Of a stretch of 64,000 bases of DNA, positions 31,474 through 37,779 are shown in pieces (positions within the stretch are counted from its first letter, which is position 1; each line of letters starts with the position of its first letter). Origin of the DNA: an uncultured Acidimicrobiales bacterium (GTDB taxonomy: Bacteria > Actinomycetota > Acidimicrobiia > Acidimicrobiales > CADCSY01); the NCBI GenBank assembly GCA_902805555.1, contig CADCSY010000092.1, positions 3,006 through 67,005 of the forward strand. The letters are read 5' to 3'. Position numbers and translations under genes: made by a program. Under the pieces are notes generated by a model. That model saw only the letters and a program-made list of their open reading frames with translations. It made no database searches and was not told the origin of the DNA.

Positions 31474-31767
31474 CAAGCACCGCCGCCGCAGAGGGCGTTG
31501 CCGATCCGGCTGCAGAGCCGGGCATGACACCAGGACGGAACCTCCGAGACGCTGGTGTCACGTCGAGGCCGAGAAGCACGCAGTCCCACCCGGCCACCAC
31601 GCCCTTCGCCCTCTTCCGTCGACGAGGGGGTGCCCTCCCAGGCGCCACCTACCCCTGACGCTCGTCCGCGTCCGAGGCGCCGGATGTGCTACTGCTGTGG
31701 ACGTCCCGCCGGCCGCAGCGCCGGTGGACGACTCGGGGCCGAACCGGCCGAAGGGAGCGGGGGTCCC
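31474..31767. other. Intergenic stretch after tRNA-Arg
   Basis: About 294 bases. Short open frames are present, but none shows a start signal or recognisable protein. No integrase remnant or clear direct repeat of the tRNA 3' end is seen. Confidence 0.4.
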
Positions 31768-32958
31768 GTGCGTCGTACTGCCAAGGCACAGCATGGGGTG
31801 CGCTTCGGCATCGCGGGCGGATTGCTGCTCCTCGTGACGGCGGGGACGTGGTCGCAGCTGCTGCCAGACCCGTTCCCCTCGGGAGGCGCCGCCGTCGAAG
31901 CGACCTCGGCGGCCGGGAGTCCGACGACGGTGCCTGTCGCCAGGGCTGCGGCATGGGACGCGACACGGGAGCCGGTCGAAGGCATCTGGATCTCACGAGC
32001 GGAGCTGGCCCCCCTCGCCCGGTCGGGCGCTGCGTGGGAGCGGGTCAAGGCCGCCGCTGATGGTGACCTGGGTGTGGCGACCGTCGCCGACTTCAACGCG
32101 AACCACGACGTGCGCACGCTGGCGGTTGCCCTCGTCTACGGCGCCACCGGGGACGAGACGTATCGGAGCAAGGCGGCAGAGGCGATCATGGCCGTGATCG
32201 GCACGGAGGCGGCGGGAGAGGCCGTCATGCTCGGCCGGAACGTGGTCTCCTACGTCATCGCCGCCGACCTCATCGATCTCGCCTCCTTCGACCCCGCTCG
32301 CGAGGCGGCGTTCCGCGCCTGGATCGACCAGGCCAGGACCCGTCCGTTCCCCGACCGGACGATGATCGAGAACGACGAGCTGCGGACGAACAACCACGGG
32401 CGTGTCGCCGGCGCCGCCAGGGCGGCGATCGCCGTTTACCTCGACGACCAGGCCGAGCTCGATCGCACCGCCCGGGTCTTCAAGGGCTTCCTCGGGGACC
32501 AGCAGGCACACGTCGGCTTCGAGTACAAGAACGGCGTCACCTGGCAGTCCGATCCCGACGAACCGTCGGGGATCGTGCCCGTCGACGGGACGAAGGACGG
32601 GCACCTGATCGACGGCGCCCTGCCCGAGGAGATGCGGCGTGGCTGTGACTTCCAGTGGCCGCCGTGCCCCACCGGCTACCCGTGGGAAGGGCTCGGCGGC
32701 GTCGTCGTCGAGGCGGAGATCCTCTCCCGCGCCGGCTACGACGCCTGGGAGTGGGAGGACAGGGCGATCCTTCGGTCGGTGACGTTCCTCGACCGCCTGG
32801 AGCGACAGCACGGGCAGTGGTGGGCCGCGGGTGACGACACCTGGCAGCCGTGGTTGCTGAACGAGGTGTACGACACCACGTTCCCCACCCTCGACGCCAA
32901 CATCGGCAAGAACATGGGCTGGACCGACTGGATGTACCAGCAGCGCGAAGGCGGCTGA
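31768..32958 (+). CDS. Secreted alginate-lyase-family protein
   Basis: 396 residues from GTG 31768, which has GGGAG nine bases upstream. Arg/Lys-rich start, then IAGGLLLLVTAGTWSQ as signal peptide or N-terminal anchor. The rest follows the alpha/alpha-barrel of the alginate lyase family (PF05426): IEND-LRTNNHGR-AGAARAA has the NNHG substrate-site motif with an Arg after it, and the later GTKDGHLIDGALPEEM and YPWEGLGG segments are also family-like. It likely cleaves an acidic or other polysaccharide outside the cell. Codon use is somewhat less GC3-rich than its neighbours. The exact glycan is unknown. Confidence 0.8.
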   Translation: MRRTAKAQHGVRFGIAGGLLLLVTAGTWSQLLPDPFPSGGAAVEATSAAGSPTTVPVARAAAWDATREPVEGIWISRAELAPLARSGAAWERVKAAADGDLGVATVADFNANHDVRTLAVALVYGATGDETYRSKAAEAIMAVIGTEAAGEAVMLGRNVVSYVIAADLIDLASFDPAREAAFRAWIDQARTRPFPDRTMIENDELRTNNHGRVAGAARAAIAVYLDDQAELDRTARVFKGFLGDQQAHVGFEYKNGVTWQSDPDEPSGIVPVDGTKDGHLIDGALPEEMRRGCDFQWPPCPTGYPWEGLGGVVVEAEILSRAGYDAWEWEDRAILRSVTFLDRLERQHGQWWAAGDDTWQPWLLNEVYDTTFPTLDANIGKNMGWTDWMYQQREGG

Positions 32959-33014: not shown

Positions 33015-33386
33015 TCAGCGCGGCGACGAACCCGTCGTCACCAGTGCGAGGCAGGGCGGCGCCTGGTTGCGGATGAGGAGGAAGGAGGGCGGTGGCAGGC
33101 GCACCGAGAGCTGCCCGCCCCGATCGTGGAGCACCCGGGCCGCTCGCTCGATCTGTTCGAACGGCTGCACGCCCACGAACGGGCACGCCTCGAGGTCGAC
33201 GACGAGGACGCCCCGTGCGAGGGCGAGCGCCGTCCGCAGCCCGTCGACGAGGAGGTCGGTCGTGCCGATGTCGAGATCCCCCGCCACCCGCAGCACGGTC
33301 ATGCCGCCCTCGGGCTCGATGCGGATCACAGCACCTCGTTCGGGAGGCCGTCGCGTCCACCAGTCCGTCGTCCCCGCACGCATCAC
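33015..33386 (-). CDS. STAS-domain protein (anti-sigma factor antagonist-like) without the usual phosphoserine
   Basis: 123 residues from GTG 33386, chosen because GGGAGG (33394-33399) sits seven bases upstream; ATG 33383 is next to it. VLRVAGDLDIGTTDLL and VLVVDLEACPFVGVQPFEQ follow the SpoIIAA/RsbV STAS fold. At the place where these proteins have D-S-S/T-G the sequence is GVQP, so the regulatory Ser is missing. It points away from the stressosome genes and may be an unswitched partner. Confidence 0.8.
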   Translation of the reverse strand: MMRAGTTDWWTRRPPERGAVIRIEPEGGMTVLRVAGDLDIGTTDLLVDGLRTALALARGVLVVDLEACPFVGVQPFEQIERAARVLHDRGGQLSVRLPPPSFLLIRNQAPPCLALVTTGSSPR

Positions 33387-33818
33387 GGCACGTCCTCCCT
33401 CACCCGCCTGCCGACAGGACCCACACGGCGCTGGGCGCGCAGCCGCGGAGCGGCGCGCCTCGCACCACTCCGGACTGCGAGCCATCGAGGTGGCTACCGA
33501 CGCCGCTGCTGCGAGACGGTGATGATCATGGTCTTCCCCTGTCGGTAATGGGTTGGATGAGCGCTCGGGCAACCAGCGCACTGGGCGGGGGCTTCCGGCG
33601 AGGCTCACTGGTAGGTACGGCTCCGAGGCGTCCCCATGACGCAAGACCCGAGGAGACCGCTGCTCGCCCTGCGGGGGCGGTCCCTCGGGCTTCCACTGGG
33701 CGTCCCGCACCTCCATCGGCACGGGGGGCTCACGTCATGCGGACAGCTCGAGCGTGTCTCAACGGATGACGGACGACGGTGGCCACCTCTCGGGGCGAGG
33801 TGGTGGAGGGAGCTCACC
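33387..33818. other. Divergent intergenic region STAS / GT90
   Basis: 432 bases with no supported full gene. On the minus strand an 11-codon frame (33529 down to 33494, MIITVSQQRRR) follows GGGGAAG and could be a leader peptide for the STAS gene. No strong promoter is visible on either strand. Confidence 0.35.
33494..33529 (-). CDS. Possible 11-residue leader peptide upstream of STAS gene
   Basis: ATG preceded at short spacing by AGGGGAAG, encoding MIITVSQQRRR then TAG. It is far too short for composition tests. Supported only by start, ribosome site and position about 105 bases upstream of the STAS start. Confidence 0.2.
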   Translation of the reverse strand: MIITVSQQRRR

Positions 33819-34769
33819 ATGCGGGTGGAGTCGATCGACCTCGGTGCAGCGGGGCGGGACATGGTGGTCTTGTTCAAGGACCGCCGGGGGGACCTGTGCG
33901 GACTCGACCTCGGTGGCCCGGAGACCCGTCACCGGTCCCTGCTGCGCCTCGTCGAGATGGCTGACGCCGAGATCGGTCTGCCGACGTTCGGGCCGCTCCT
34001 CCTCCACACGAGGGACCAGCCGGTGGGCACGCACGAGCGGCCGTGGCGGGCCTACTCGTTCTGCTCCTCGACCACCCACCTCGACGTGCCGGTCCCGGAC
34101 TTCGTCTTCGGCGGCTGGCCCGAGGTCGGCATCCACGACTACGACGAGACGTGTCGAGCGGTCGCGGCCGCAGGGGCGGCCCCCGCCGAGCTACCGGTGG
34201 CGGGCTGGGTCGGCAGCCTGGCCACCCACCCGATCCGGGCCGAGCTCCACCGGATCGGGTCGGAGCACCCGGCCCAGCTCGACGTGCAGCAGGTGGAGTG
34301 GGGACAGAGGAACGCAGACGGGGCGCAGCTCGGGACGGTCACGGGCACCCACCTGTCGTTGGCCGACCAGGCGGCTCGGTGGGGTGCGCTCCTCGATGTC
34401 GAGGGTGCCGGCTACAGCGGCCGGCTCAAGCTCCTGCTCCACGCCGGCCGGCCAGTGCTGGTCCAGGACCGGCCGTGGCACGAGTGGTGGCAGGAGGCCT
34501 TCCGGCCGATGGAGCACTACATCCCGGTGCGACGCGATCTCGGCGACCTGGTGGAGCGAGCGCGATGGGTGCAGGAGCACCCCTGCGAGGCTGCCGCCGT
34601 GGGTGCAGCCGGACAGGCCGTGGCGAAGCGGCTGCTCAGCCGCGCTTCGGCGGCCGAGCGCTGGGTCGCGGTCGCAGGGGCCCACGACAGCACGCTCGGC
34701 CCGTGGGCACCACCGGAGCTGCTGGGGGCCATCGAACCTCACCTCGCCAGGATGGGCCTCATCAGTTGA
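33819..34769 (+). CDS. CAP10/GT90-family glycosyltransferase-like protein
   Basis: 316 residues. ATG 33819 follows GGAGGGAG (33805-33812) at good spacing; the longer frame to 33636 lacks this. The C-terminal half reads GYSGRLKLLLHAGRPVLVQ, HEWWQEAFRPMEHYIPVRRDL and DLVERARWVQEH, the conserved block of the Glyco_transf_90 (CAP10/rumi) family that transfers xylose or glucose. The N-terminal third contains FVFGGWPEVGI. No signal peptide. Possibly acts on cell-surface glycans along with the lyase upstream. Confidence 0.8.
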   Translation: MRVESIDLGAAGRDMVVLFKDRRGDLCGLDLGGPETRHRSLLRLVEMADAEIGLPTFGPLLLHTRDQPVGTHERPWRAYSFCSSTTHLDVPVPDFVFGGWPEVGIHDYDETCRAVAAAGAAPAELPVAGWVGSLATHPIRAELHRIGSEHPAQLDVQQVEWGQRNADGAQLGTVTGTHLSLADQAARWGALLDVEGAGYSGRLKLLLHAGRPVLVQDRPWHEWWQEAFRPMEHYIPVRRDLGDLVERARWVQEHPCEAAAVGAAGQAVAKRLLSRASAAERWVAVAGAHDSTLGPWAPPELLGAIEPHLARMGLIS

Positions 34770-34857: not shown

Positions 34858-35937
34858 GTGAGTGCCGGGCGTGAGGTCATCGACCAGGACGCTCGCCTCG
34901 ACGGGTCGGACGGCCTCGCCGAGCTCACCGGGCTCATCCGCCGCGTCGTCGCCGGTCGGGTGGACAGCCGGGAGGCAGTCGACGACATCGTGCAGGAGAC
35001 CGTTGCGCGCCTCCTCGCCGCGAGCCACCGGCTCGACGGTCGGGCGGTGGGGCCGTATGCGGTCGTCACCGCCCGGAACCTGGTGGCGTCGCAGTGGCGG
35101 AGGGCGGACACCGGCATGCGCCACGCGCACCGCCTGTTCGATCCACGTGCCGCAGTGGCGCCCGACGAGGCGCTCCTCGAGCGTGAGGAGGCAGAGGCGA
35201 TCCGCTCCGCGCTCGACCGCCTGTCACCGCGGGAGCGTGAGGTCCTGCTCGCCCACGAGGTGCACGGCCGCGACACGAGGTCGCTGGCCGACGAGCTCCA
35301 CTCGACCCCCGGCGCCGTCGCCGCCCAGCTCAGCAGGTCCCGGGCGAAGCTGCGCGTCGAGTACCTCATCGAGCTCGATCGCGAGCCCCCGACCGGCCAG
35401 TGCCGGCCCGTCCTGCTCTCGCTGTCCGCTGGCGACAAGCGGCGGCAGTCGGAGCTCGACGCCGGTTACCACCTGCTCGACTGCGGCTACTGCGCTGCGC
35501 TCAGCGAGCCGCTGTTCGACCGGCGCGCAGCCGCCGCACCGGACGAGGTGCGGGTGGCGGTGGAGGTGGACGCCGACATCGTCGTCGTCCGCCAGCGCGG
35601 GCGAGACCTGGCGATGCAGGCCGGCTTCTCCGCCGCCGAAGCCACCATGATCGCAACTGCGGTCTCGGAGATCGCCCGCAACATCGTCCGCTTCGCCCGC
35701 CGCGGGGAGGTCACGGTGACCGTCGCCACGGACGGCGACGCGACGGGCGTGACGGTCGTCGCGCGCGACGCCGGTCCGGGGATCCCCGACATCGAACGTG
35801 CGCTGGAGCCGGGCTTCACCACCTACGGTGGTCGAGGCTTGGGGCTCCCCGGCTCCCGCAGGCTGATGGACGAGTTCGTCATCGTCTCCGATGTGGGGCG
35901 CGGCACCACCGTCACCATGACGAAGTGGCGTCGTTGA
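34858..35937 (+). CDS. Sigma factor - zinc anti-sigma-like linker - RsbT kinase fusion
   Basis: 359 residues in one uninterrupted frame. Residues 20-100 are ECF sigma region 2 (VDDIVQETVARLLAASH, VTARNLVASQWRRADT). Residues 108-175 are region 4 with helix-turn-helix (LDRLSPREREVLLAHEV, TPGAVAAQLSRSRAKLR). Residues 182-212 hold C182, H205, C209 and C212, the Cys...HxxxCxxC pattern of zinc-binding anti-sigma domains. Residues 230-359 match the whole of RsbT: VRQRGRDLAMQAGFS, AVSEIARNIVRFARRG (N box), DAGPGIPDIERALEPGF (G1), GGRGLGLPGSRRLMDEF (G2). RsbT phosphorylates RsbS and RsbR. The next two genes encode those partners. GTG 34858 is the only sensible start. Confidence 0.9.
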   Translation: MSAGREVIDQDARLDGSDGLAELTGLIRRVVAGRVDSREAVDDIVQETVARLLAASHRLDGRAVGPYAVVTARNLVASQWRRADTGMRHAHRLFDPRAAVAPDEALLEREEAEAIRSALDRLSPREREVLLAHEVHGRDTRSLADELHSTPGAVAAQLSRSRAKLRVEYLIELDREPPTGQCRPVLLSLSAGDKRRQSELDAGYHLLDCGYCAALSEPLFDRRAAAAPDEVRVAVEVDADIVVVRQRGRDLAMQAGFSAAEATMIATAVSEIARNIVRFARRGEVTVTVATDGDATGVTVVARDAGPGIPDIERALEPGFTTYGGRGLGLPGSRRLMDEFVIVSDVGRGTTVTMTKWRR

Positions 35938-35990
35938 GGCGGCGGGAGCGTGTCGTGTCAGTGCTCGAAGAACGGACCGAGGGAGTGGTG

Positions 35991-36890
35991 ATGGCTGAGC
36001 CAGAGCTGGATGACGAGTCAGAGCTGGATGACGTCGAACGTGCGGCACCGCGGGACGACCACCGCCTGCTGCCGGCGCTCGTGGCGCACCTGCGCGAGCA
36101 CCGGACGGAGCTGCGCGAGGAGTGGGAGCGCCGCATCGAGACGACCCACCTCCTGCAGGCGATGACACCGCACGAGGTCGGCTCGGAGACGACCTCCGTC
36201 TACGACAACTACGTGGAGGTGCTCGAGACCGGCAGCGTCGACGCGCTGCAGCGCTACGCCCGGGACCTGTCGGAGCGCATCATCCCGCGGGGCGTGGAGA
36301 CCCACGAGGTCGTGGGGATCGTCCTGCTCCTCCGCGACGTGCTCGCCCGCTCGCTGTTCCTCAAGTACCACGACGACTTCGACGTGCTCAACCGCGTGCT
36401 CGACGCCTACGAGCCCGCCGCCAACCGCATCGCCAACACCGTCGCCGTGAGCTTCGTCGAGGAGCGCGAGCGCATCATCCGCCAGCAGCAGGACGCCATC
36501 AGGGAGCTGTCCACCCCGGTGCTCCAGGTGCGCGAGCGCCTCCTCATCCTCCCCATCATCGGCGTCCTCGACAGCCAACGAGCCACGCAGCTCACCGACC
36601 AGCTGCTGCGCGGCATCCGGCTCAACCGCGCCAGGGTCGTCGTCATCGACATCACCGGCGTCCCCGACATCGACACGACCGTCGCCAACCACATCGTCGA
36701 GACGGTCGACGCCTCGAGGCTCATGGGTGCGAGCGTGATCATCACCGGCCTCTCCCCGGAGATCGCGAGGACGCTGGTGACGATCGGCGTCGACCTCAGC
36801 AAGATGAACACGATCGGCGACCTGCAAGGCGGCATCGAGGAGGCGGAGCGACAGCTCGGCTTCCACGTGACCCGCTCCGAGGACAGCTGA
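35991..36890 (+). CDS. rsbR: RsbR-type stressosome co-antagonist
   Basis: 299 residues. Residues 22-160 form an all-helical N-terminal sensor domain like the globin-like domain of RsbR proteins; no haem ligand is assigned. Residues 172-290 are a STAS domain nearly matching RsbRA: RELSTPVLQVRERLLILPIIG, DITGVPDIDTTVANHIVE and SPEIARTLVTIG. T229 and T261 match the two threonines phosphorylated by RsbT in Bacillus. GGGAG six bases before ATG 35991; a GTG at 35955 has an equal signal and would add 12 residues. Second gene of the module. Confidence 0.92.
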   Translation: MAEPELDDESELDDVERAAPRDDHRLLPALVAHLREHRTELREEWERRIETTHLLQAMTPHEVGSETTSVYDNYVEVLETGSVDALQRYARDLSERIIPRGVETHEVVGIVLLLRDVLARSLFLKYHDDFDVLNRVLDAYEPAANRIANTVAVSFVEERERIIRQQQDAIRELSTPVLQVRERLLILPIIGVLDSQRATQLTDQLLRGIRLNRARVVVIDITGVPDIDTTVANHIVETVDASRLMGASVIITGLSPEIARTLVTIGVDLSKMNTIGDLQGGIEEAERQLGFHVTRSEDS

Positions 36891-36916
36891 CCCGGCGGAA
36901 CTGGGACACTGGACCC

Positions 36917-37318
36917 GTGTTCGTCTCGATCCTGCGCCAGGGCGACTTCCTGATCGCCTCCATCCACACGGCGCTCGACGACACGGAGCTGCTCCGCTTC
37001 CAGGAAGACCTCGTCACCCAGATCGGCACGTCCCGGGCACAGGGGATCGTCATCGACGTCGCCGCGCTCGACGTCCTCGACTCCTTCGCCTCGAGTGCCC
37101 TCCGCGACCTCGCCCAGATGGCCCGACTGCGGGGTGCTGCCACCGTCATCGTCGGGATCCAACCGGATGTCGCCTTCGCCATCGTGCGACTGGGGATGGA
37201 GCTGGACATCCACACGGCACTGGGCCTCGAGGAGGGGTTGGCGTACCTGGAGAGCGTCACGTCGGGCAACCGGGCCGGCGGCTCCGCCCTCGGCGCGCTG
37301 CGCGGCGTCGACCGCTGA
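36917..37318 (+). CDS. rsbS: RsbS-type stressosome scaffold antagonist
   Basis: 133 residues, a single STAS domain matching RsbS: FLIASIHTALDDTELLRFQEDLVTQIG, GIVIDVAALDVLDSFASSALRD and GIQPDVAFAIVRLGMELD. S56 corresponds to the Ser phosphorylated by RsbT. RsbS normally holds RsbT; here it would hold the sigma-RsbT fusion. A C-terminal extension of about 17 residues is Gly/Ala/Arg-rich. GACACT lies six bases before GTG 36917, possibly an internal leaderless promoter. Confidence 0.92.
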   Translation: MFVSILRQGDFLIASIHTALDDTELLRFQEDLVTQIGTSRAQGIVIDVAALDVLDSFASSALRDLAQMARLRGAATVIVGIQPDVAFAIVRLGMELDIHTALGLEEGLAYLESVTSGNRAGGSALGALRGVDR

Positions 37319-37488
37319 GCGCGAGCCCCACCGTCGACCACGTCGGGACGGGGGTCCTCCACGGGAGCTCGACGCCACCCGACCGGCACTTGCGCAGCTC
37401 CCGCGTCATGCGCGCCGGTCGAACACGTCTCACTGGGTGACGAGACGAGCGGCCGCCGGGTGGCGGTGGTGCGACCGGGGGGATCCAC

Positions 37489-37779
37489 GTGGGCGCGTTC
37501 ACAGAGGTGCGGCGGTGGGAGCGCGGGCTGTCCTGCGTCGACGGGCAGGTGTACCGCCAGCTCGCAGCGGGTGCCGACGAGTTCCTCGTCGTGGTGCGGG
37601 CATCCGACTTCCCGGCGGCGATGGCGGACGTGCTCCCCCAGGTCGTCCAGTACCTCGACGGGTTCGACGTGCTCGTGACCGGCGTGCGCGTCCAGGGTGC
37701 GACCGCCCACGTCCGGGTCCGACAGCGCACGACGAACCACACGGTGTGCACCCGACCCTCGCACCCCGGACTGCGGTAG
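37489..37779 (+). CDS. Small protein of unknown function downstream of stressosome genes
   Basis: 96 residues, start GTG 37489 after GGGGGG. Reads like a compact alpha/beta protein (EFLVVVRASDFPAAMADVLPQV, then FDVLVTGVRVQGATAHVRVRQR). No family recognised, no membrane segment. It follows rsbS by 170 bases on the same strand and is likely coding by GC3 bias. Confidence 0.55.
   Translation: MGAFTEVRRWERGLSCVDGQVYRQLAAGADEFLVVVRASDFPAAMADVLPQVVQYLDGFDVLVTGVRVQGATAHVRVRQRTTNHTVCTRPSHPGLR

Follow-up and report, generated by a model that had tools for sequence, protein, structure and literature searches.

In textbook bacteria, a multi-protein relay stands between the stressosome and gene expression. 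The stretch of DNA analyzed here (64 kb, hereafter "the window") encodes an ECF sigma factor, a zinc-type domain, and an RsbT kinase in one protein, upstream of rsbR and rsbS. This domain architecture is near certain, and its recurrence across 18 actinobacterial genomes suggests that the stress sensor is wired to gene expression by a short and direct route. We consider it likely (probability of roughly 0.6) that the stressosome directly holds and releases an ECF sigma factor built into its own kinase, because the fusion is conserved, it is the sole RsbT where this was tested, and neither an RsbU phosphatase nor RsbX was found in the fusion genomes searched for them. Such a direct hold and release had been proposed in an earlier note on this DNA, and it stands as the best reading, with a predicted sign of regulation.

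We infer the following scheme for docking, direction of control, the role of RsbU_N, and target promoters. In unstressed cells, the fusion would dock via its RsbT part on the RsbR–RsbS particle, and the attached sigma factor would be kept from RNA polymerase. Upon stress, the RsbT part would phosphorylate Ser56 of RsbS and the fusion would come off; the freed sigma part, perhaps after a rearrangement of the zinc domain, would then transcribe envelope and secreted-protein genes, the promoters of which possibly carry CGTCATG at −10, and the RsbU/RsbV/RsbW relay would be bypassed. For most relatives, though not for the window, a bare RsbU_N domain would most likely bind and pair the freed RsbT parts, barring their return to the particle.

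The sigma and RsbT parts lie, as the earlier note had stated, in a single frame, and reading this frame from its GTG to its stop revealed no internal stop codon (Table 1). Matches to Sigma70_r2, Sigma70_r4_2, and HATPase_c_2, from a profile search of the kind suggested in that note, all exceeded the Pfam cut-offs. With sigma-70 regions 2 and 4, no region 3, and a TIGR02937 match at 2e-19, the sigma part is of the ECF type. The linker of the gene is unbroken with a third-position GC of 83–95%, and substitutions relative to the closest relative (77% identity) are found mainly at codon position 3, including at the junction. In an AlphaFold2 model (mean pLDDT 90.8), sigma2, sigma4, the helical zinc domain (residues 182–220), and RsbT (residues 230–357) are well folded, with a low-confidence link at residues 222–224 and a pTM of 0.50 that leaves the relative placement of the domains undefined.

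Table 1 Features of the fusion locus and its surroundings in the window
Feature	Position	Strand	Basis or remark
Alginate-lyase-type protein	31660–32958		upstream of operon
STAS protein	33015–33722	−	Pfam STAS, E 5e-5 (barely above cut-off); two genes upstream of fusion
CGTCATG toward STAS gene	33635–33641	−	tentative
CGTCATG, candidate −10 toward glycosyltransferase family 90 (GT90) gene	33733–33739	+	tentative
GT90 gene	33819–34769		directly precedes fusion
Fusion gene, ECF sigma factor–zinc-type domain–RsbT kinase	34858–35937	+	359 aa, GTG start
Sigma-70 region 2, residues 25–84	34930–35109	+	Pfam PF04542 Sigma70_r2, E 4e-9
Sigma-70 region 4, residues 113–165	35194–35352	+	Pfam PF08281 Sigma70_r4_2, E 3e-11
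C182-x22-H205-x3-C209-x2-C212 motif, small helical domain (helices 182–220)	35401–35493	+	motif conservation and helices in model
RsbT kinase domain, residues 230–359	35545–35934	+	Pfam HATPase_c_2, residues 241–356, E 6e-16
rsbR, RsbRD_N-type N-domain and STAS	35955–36890	+	two possible starts, GTG 35955 and ATG 35991, the latter better conserved
rsbS, single STAS domain, target Ser56	36917–37318	+	
CGTCATG in gap after rsbS, before ORF 37489–37779	37404–37410	+	tentative
ORF after rsbS, 96 aa	37489–37779		coding-like GC phase; 79 bases past CGTCATG

Judged by its alignment scores, the fused kinase belongs with RsbT, not with the anti-sigma kinase RsbW. Reference proteins were taken from a Listeria record with a complete operon, in which both were identified by gene order and annotation; the fused kinase scored 114 bits against RsbT (44% identity) and 31 bits against RsbW, which rules out an RsbW-type anti-sigma kinase. 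Its identity to the separate RsbTs that related bacteria encode in rsbR-S-T operons is mostly 50–58%. The N (E271, N275), G1 (D304, G306, G308), and G2 (G325, G327, G329) boxes, on which the earlier note had based its call of a complete RsbT, are all in place and are invariant in the 18 fusions. The domain is a predicted kinase that would act on RsbR and RsbS and bind the particle. One residue of the ATP lid, Tyr323 (nt 35824–35826, within T-Y-x-G), distinguishes all 18 fused RsbTs from the separate ones (0 of 14 aligned).

The main rival to direct hold and release reverses the sign: the RsbT part would inhibit its own sigma factor in cis, and binding of RsbR/RsbS, in the style of an anti-anti-sigma factor, would free the sigma factor. 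SpoIIAB and RsbW, which inhibit their sigma factors in trans, are the best structural matches of the fused kinase, the fold superfamily includes true anti-sigma kinases, and the fusion-specific Tyr323 might touch the sigma part. However, the bit scores are those of an RsbT and not of an RsbW, and we know of no RsbT that binds a sigma factor, such that we regard this opposite sign as unlikely.

The four putative zinc ligands between the sigma and kinase parts (C182, H205, C209, and C212) are invariant in 18/18 fusions and in the aligned membrane-type paralogs. The Cys...HxxxCxxC linker described in the earlier note is thus present and conserved, but Pfam zf-HC2, the profile proposed for it, yielded no match in this part of the fusion up to an E-value of 5, and the zinc assignment is therefore based on the motif. 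The sigma half is most closely related to sigma–zinc proteins that end in a different C-terminal part and share up to 59% identity with it across the sigma–zinc region; in these proteins, a hydrophobic stretch is readable after the zinc motif (by eye from the sequence, not from a membrane predictor). The same genome also encodes a sigma–zinc paralog (L002, 1462–2691), 44% identical over residues 18–265, with another C-terminal part in place of RsbT. A comparable layout of sigma factor, zinc anti-sigma domain, and membrane helices is known from ECF48, ECF52, and ECF53 (PMC8999054). The fusion has in common with these proteins (e.g., SCO4117; PMC8999054, PMC5826349) the sigma–zinc order, with the zinc motif after region 4, a likeness by layout and not by ECF group assignment. 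Unlike them, it is soluble, lacks a transmembrane helix, carries RsbT directly after a short flexible link, and sits in an rsbRS operon. Judged by the ligands common to its relatives and by this layout, the zinc domain is inherited from a sigma–zinc–membrane family, also represented in this genome, and is not new to the fusion, which looks like a sigma–zinc–membrane protein whose membrane part was swapped for RsbT.

The zinc domain may mask the sigma part, and a further alternative, which we deem rather improbable, makes this domain the real switch, as an in-cis anti-sigma domain or a redox sensor, with RsbT only positioning the protein on the particle or reporting its state. The invariance of the ligands in fusions and membrane-type paralogs alike would fit this alternative, as would the ECF48/52/53 precedent (PMC8999054) and the over-representation of zinc motifs among soluble class I anti-sigma factors (PMC7406223). 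However, zinc motifs can also have a merely structural role (PMC7406223), and the kinase boxes and RsbS Ser56 are just as invariant as the ligands.

RsbR (N-domain and STAS), RsbS, and RsbT are encoded together, as in a stressosome module. The RsbR and RsbS family profiles match chains of solved stressosomes (E 1e-35 and 7e-31), and identity to the Listeria proteins is 29% by alignment for RsbR and 41% for RsbS. The Listeria sites T175, T209, and S56, the functions of which have been described (PMC12154155; Bacillus phospho-sites are T171, T205, and S59, PMC3944199), map to S195 and T229 of the window RsbR (numbered from ATG 35991) and to Ser56 of RsbS. Accordingly, the RsbS target Ser of the earlier note was recovered and is kept in 17/17 fusion loci; of the two target Thr assigned to RsbR, one was recovered as T229, whereas the T175 equivalent is a Ser. 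Thr175 (ELSTP) and Thr222 (DITGV) of the window RsbR are conserved, but these are not the mapped target positions, while S195 and T229 are present in the window yet without family-wide conservation. At the T209 equivalent, fusion loci carry Glu in 11/17 cases and Val, His, or Ala in four; the window and G080 alone have Thr. In separate-RsbT loci, by comparison, this position is Ser or Thr in 16 of the 17 readable cases. A Glu at this site resembles a built-in phosphomimetic. Phosphorylation of T209 has been reported to dampen the response (PMC12154155); a permanent negative charge at this RsbR position and the loss of RsbX, the phosphatase that resets the system, would be consistent with each other. 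Given this decay of the RsbR phospho-sites, release may not follow the Bacillus scheme.

Most relatives add a gene to the three-gene locus of the earlier note: in 15 of the 17 loci extending far enough, a fourth gene encodes a free-standing RsbU N-terminal domain (PF08673), i.e., the RsbT-binding part without the phosphatase. Neither the window nor G080 has this gene, and the G1026 contig ends too early to be counted. In each of six genomes tested, the fusion was the sole RsbT, with one RsbR and one RsbS, and no RsbU_N joined to a PP2C phosphatase was found; in four of the six, the free-standing RsbU_N of the operon was the only one above cut-off. No RsbU_N was found in the genome of the window, and G080 displayed one sub-threshold match outside the operon. 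RsbX was not found in eight fusion genomes (possibly incomplete drafts, although G1196 is one contig) beyond two weak matches within longer frames.

Relatives with a separate RsbT have the order rsbR-rsbS-rsbT, and in most of their loci an RsbX-like PP2C gene (names read from the sequence) comes next; in loci that are long enough, an RsbU_N with an effector (GAF/PP2C or HD-GYP, likewise read from the sequence) can follow. One such locus (L053 2501–3399, G923) encodes an RsbU_N-like domain joined to an apparent HD-GYP after rsbR-S-T-X, i.e., another stressosome output. In fusion loci, rsbT is missing from its usual place and is instead part of the first gene of the operon, where it is fused to the sigma factor. 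In Bacillus, release of RsbT is followed by its capture by the dimeric RsbU N-domain (PMC12143880). A conventional arrangement, in which the RsbT part feeds the usual RsbU–RsbV–RsbW relay and the sigma part rides along or is under separate control, could draw on the STAS gene two genes upstream of the fusion; however, it appears very improbable, as the six genomes have no RsbU_N with a phosphatase and only free-standing RsbU_N above cut-off, and as conservation extends over the sigma regions and the junction. Returning to direct hold and release, these loci would probably represent a stressosome class that has not been described before, with the sigma factor covalently joined to the only kinase, a bare RsbU_N as the second switch partner in most loci, and RsbX dispensed with.

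The fusion is followed by rsbR in 18/18 genomes from three actinobacterial classes, and rsbS is present in all 17 whose contig extends that far. Whole-genome searches identified the fusions in the order of the window itself (G080, 77% identical, and G336, 59%), in other classes of the phylum (G908, G850, and G741, with G1026 and G1196 from the same class as G741), and in ten further genomes from the order of G1196. Relatives with the same domain order, which the earlier note had suggested looking for, are thus found both in the order of the window and beyond, and homologs are not separate genes everywhere. The G1585 match begins only at about residue 95–102, and one internal TGA is recorded for the G1558 match. 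Among genome contigs, a search for related loci recovered a single fusion, that of the Acidimicrobiales MAG AVDCRST_MAG50; no fusion turned up in a plasmid search, and a viral fold search returned generic kinase and sigma matches only. That two genes were joined by a frame or assembly error in the source genome, a 135-contig draft, has a negligible probability, and a frameshift or stop between the sigma and RsbT parts, the objection raised in the earlier note, is ruled out, as is an assembly chimera, by a junction that recurs in 18 genomes, several of which are assembled as a single contig, and by a coding signal that is continuous across it. In trees of the first six fusions, both the sigma part (99/97) and the RsbT part (93/95) formed one clade, so that a single fusion event, then inheritance or transfer, would be the simplest account. 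The distribution is patchy, and other genomes of the window's own family carry separate RsbTs.

Compared to the Bacillus and Listeria stressosome with its RsbU/V/W–SigB relay and RsbX, the fusion loci retain RsbR, RsbS, and RsbT orthologs and the RsbS target Ser. They differ in that an ECF sigma factor precedes RsbT in the same protein, RsbX and the RsbU phosphatase were not found in the genomes searched, RsbU is reduced to its N-domain or absent, and the RsbR T209 equivalent is mostly Glu. Stressosome modules with other outputs have been described, including RsbRSTX with cyclases, histidine kinases, and phosphatases (PMC9237108) and RsbU_N effectors (PMC12143880). As in the fusion loci, the core is kept and the output differs; however, these outputs are separate proteins reached via free RsbT, some by RsbU_N, whereas here the output is a sigma factor joined to RsbT. 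EcfG/NepR/PhyR (PMC8999054) similarly places an ECF sigma factor under the partner-switch logic of a general stress response, but the fusion system has no NepR or PhyR part and uses STAS proteins and an RsbT kinase instead. Searches of open-access full text yielded stressosomes with cyclase, kinase, and phosphatase outputs and no sigma–RsbT fusion, in line with the earlier note, which knew of no protein with this layout. The fusion represents a stressosome variant with a new output module.

The output of stressosome signalling is commonly measured several steps downstream, and the release step is therefore still debated. If the proposed reading is true, the kinase would double as a transcription factor once released, so that in a system of three or four small proteins transcription could report directly on binding, phosphorylation, and release. 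This would be the shortest route from a stressosome to RNA polymerase known to us, a new mode of ECF sigma regulation, and a natural case of a signalling core that keeps its sensor and has its output fused in. The single-contig relatives make the system testable.

Genes surrounding the operon provide leads on its targets. Upstream of the fusion, the alginate-lyase-type and GT90 genes point to envelope or capsule functions, and the STAS protein encoded between them is perhaps another anti-anti-sigma factor. The 96-aa ORF after rsbS had no match in Pfam. Secreted-protein genes adjoin the operon in seven genomes (G080, G336, G850, G908, G741, G1295, and G1492). In G336, G908, and G850 they encode one family of small secreted proteins, of which each genome has no other clear copy; G080 carries a different family beside the operon and G741, G1295, and G1492 yet another. 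Secreted proteins of a PVTGTxADGT family are encoded just downstream of the operon in three genomes (L062 9828–10361, L109 6092–6673, and L118 5951–6505) and had no match in Pfam (two proteins searched at 0.1, the third at 10). The label "chaplin" for the adjacent small secreted proteins was dropped, as only ChpA-C matched, at E 2.3. A PRC-barrel/DUF2382 gene adjoins the operon in G1557, with a similar gene in G1585.

The motif CGTCATG is common to four upstream regions, and any common 7-mer arose in 0.55% of shuffles. It occurs again in 3/5 regions outside the discovery set (P about 6e-5, for five regions chosen by hand), and it also occurs inside genes (20 copies in the 64 kb). No −35 element was recognized upstream of it by eye. 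The motif resembles what we take to be the CGTC-type −10 of ECF promoters, and as a lead it may be considered a candidate −10 element before secreted-protein and envelope genes.
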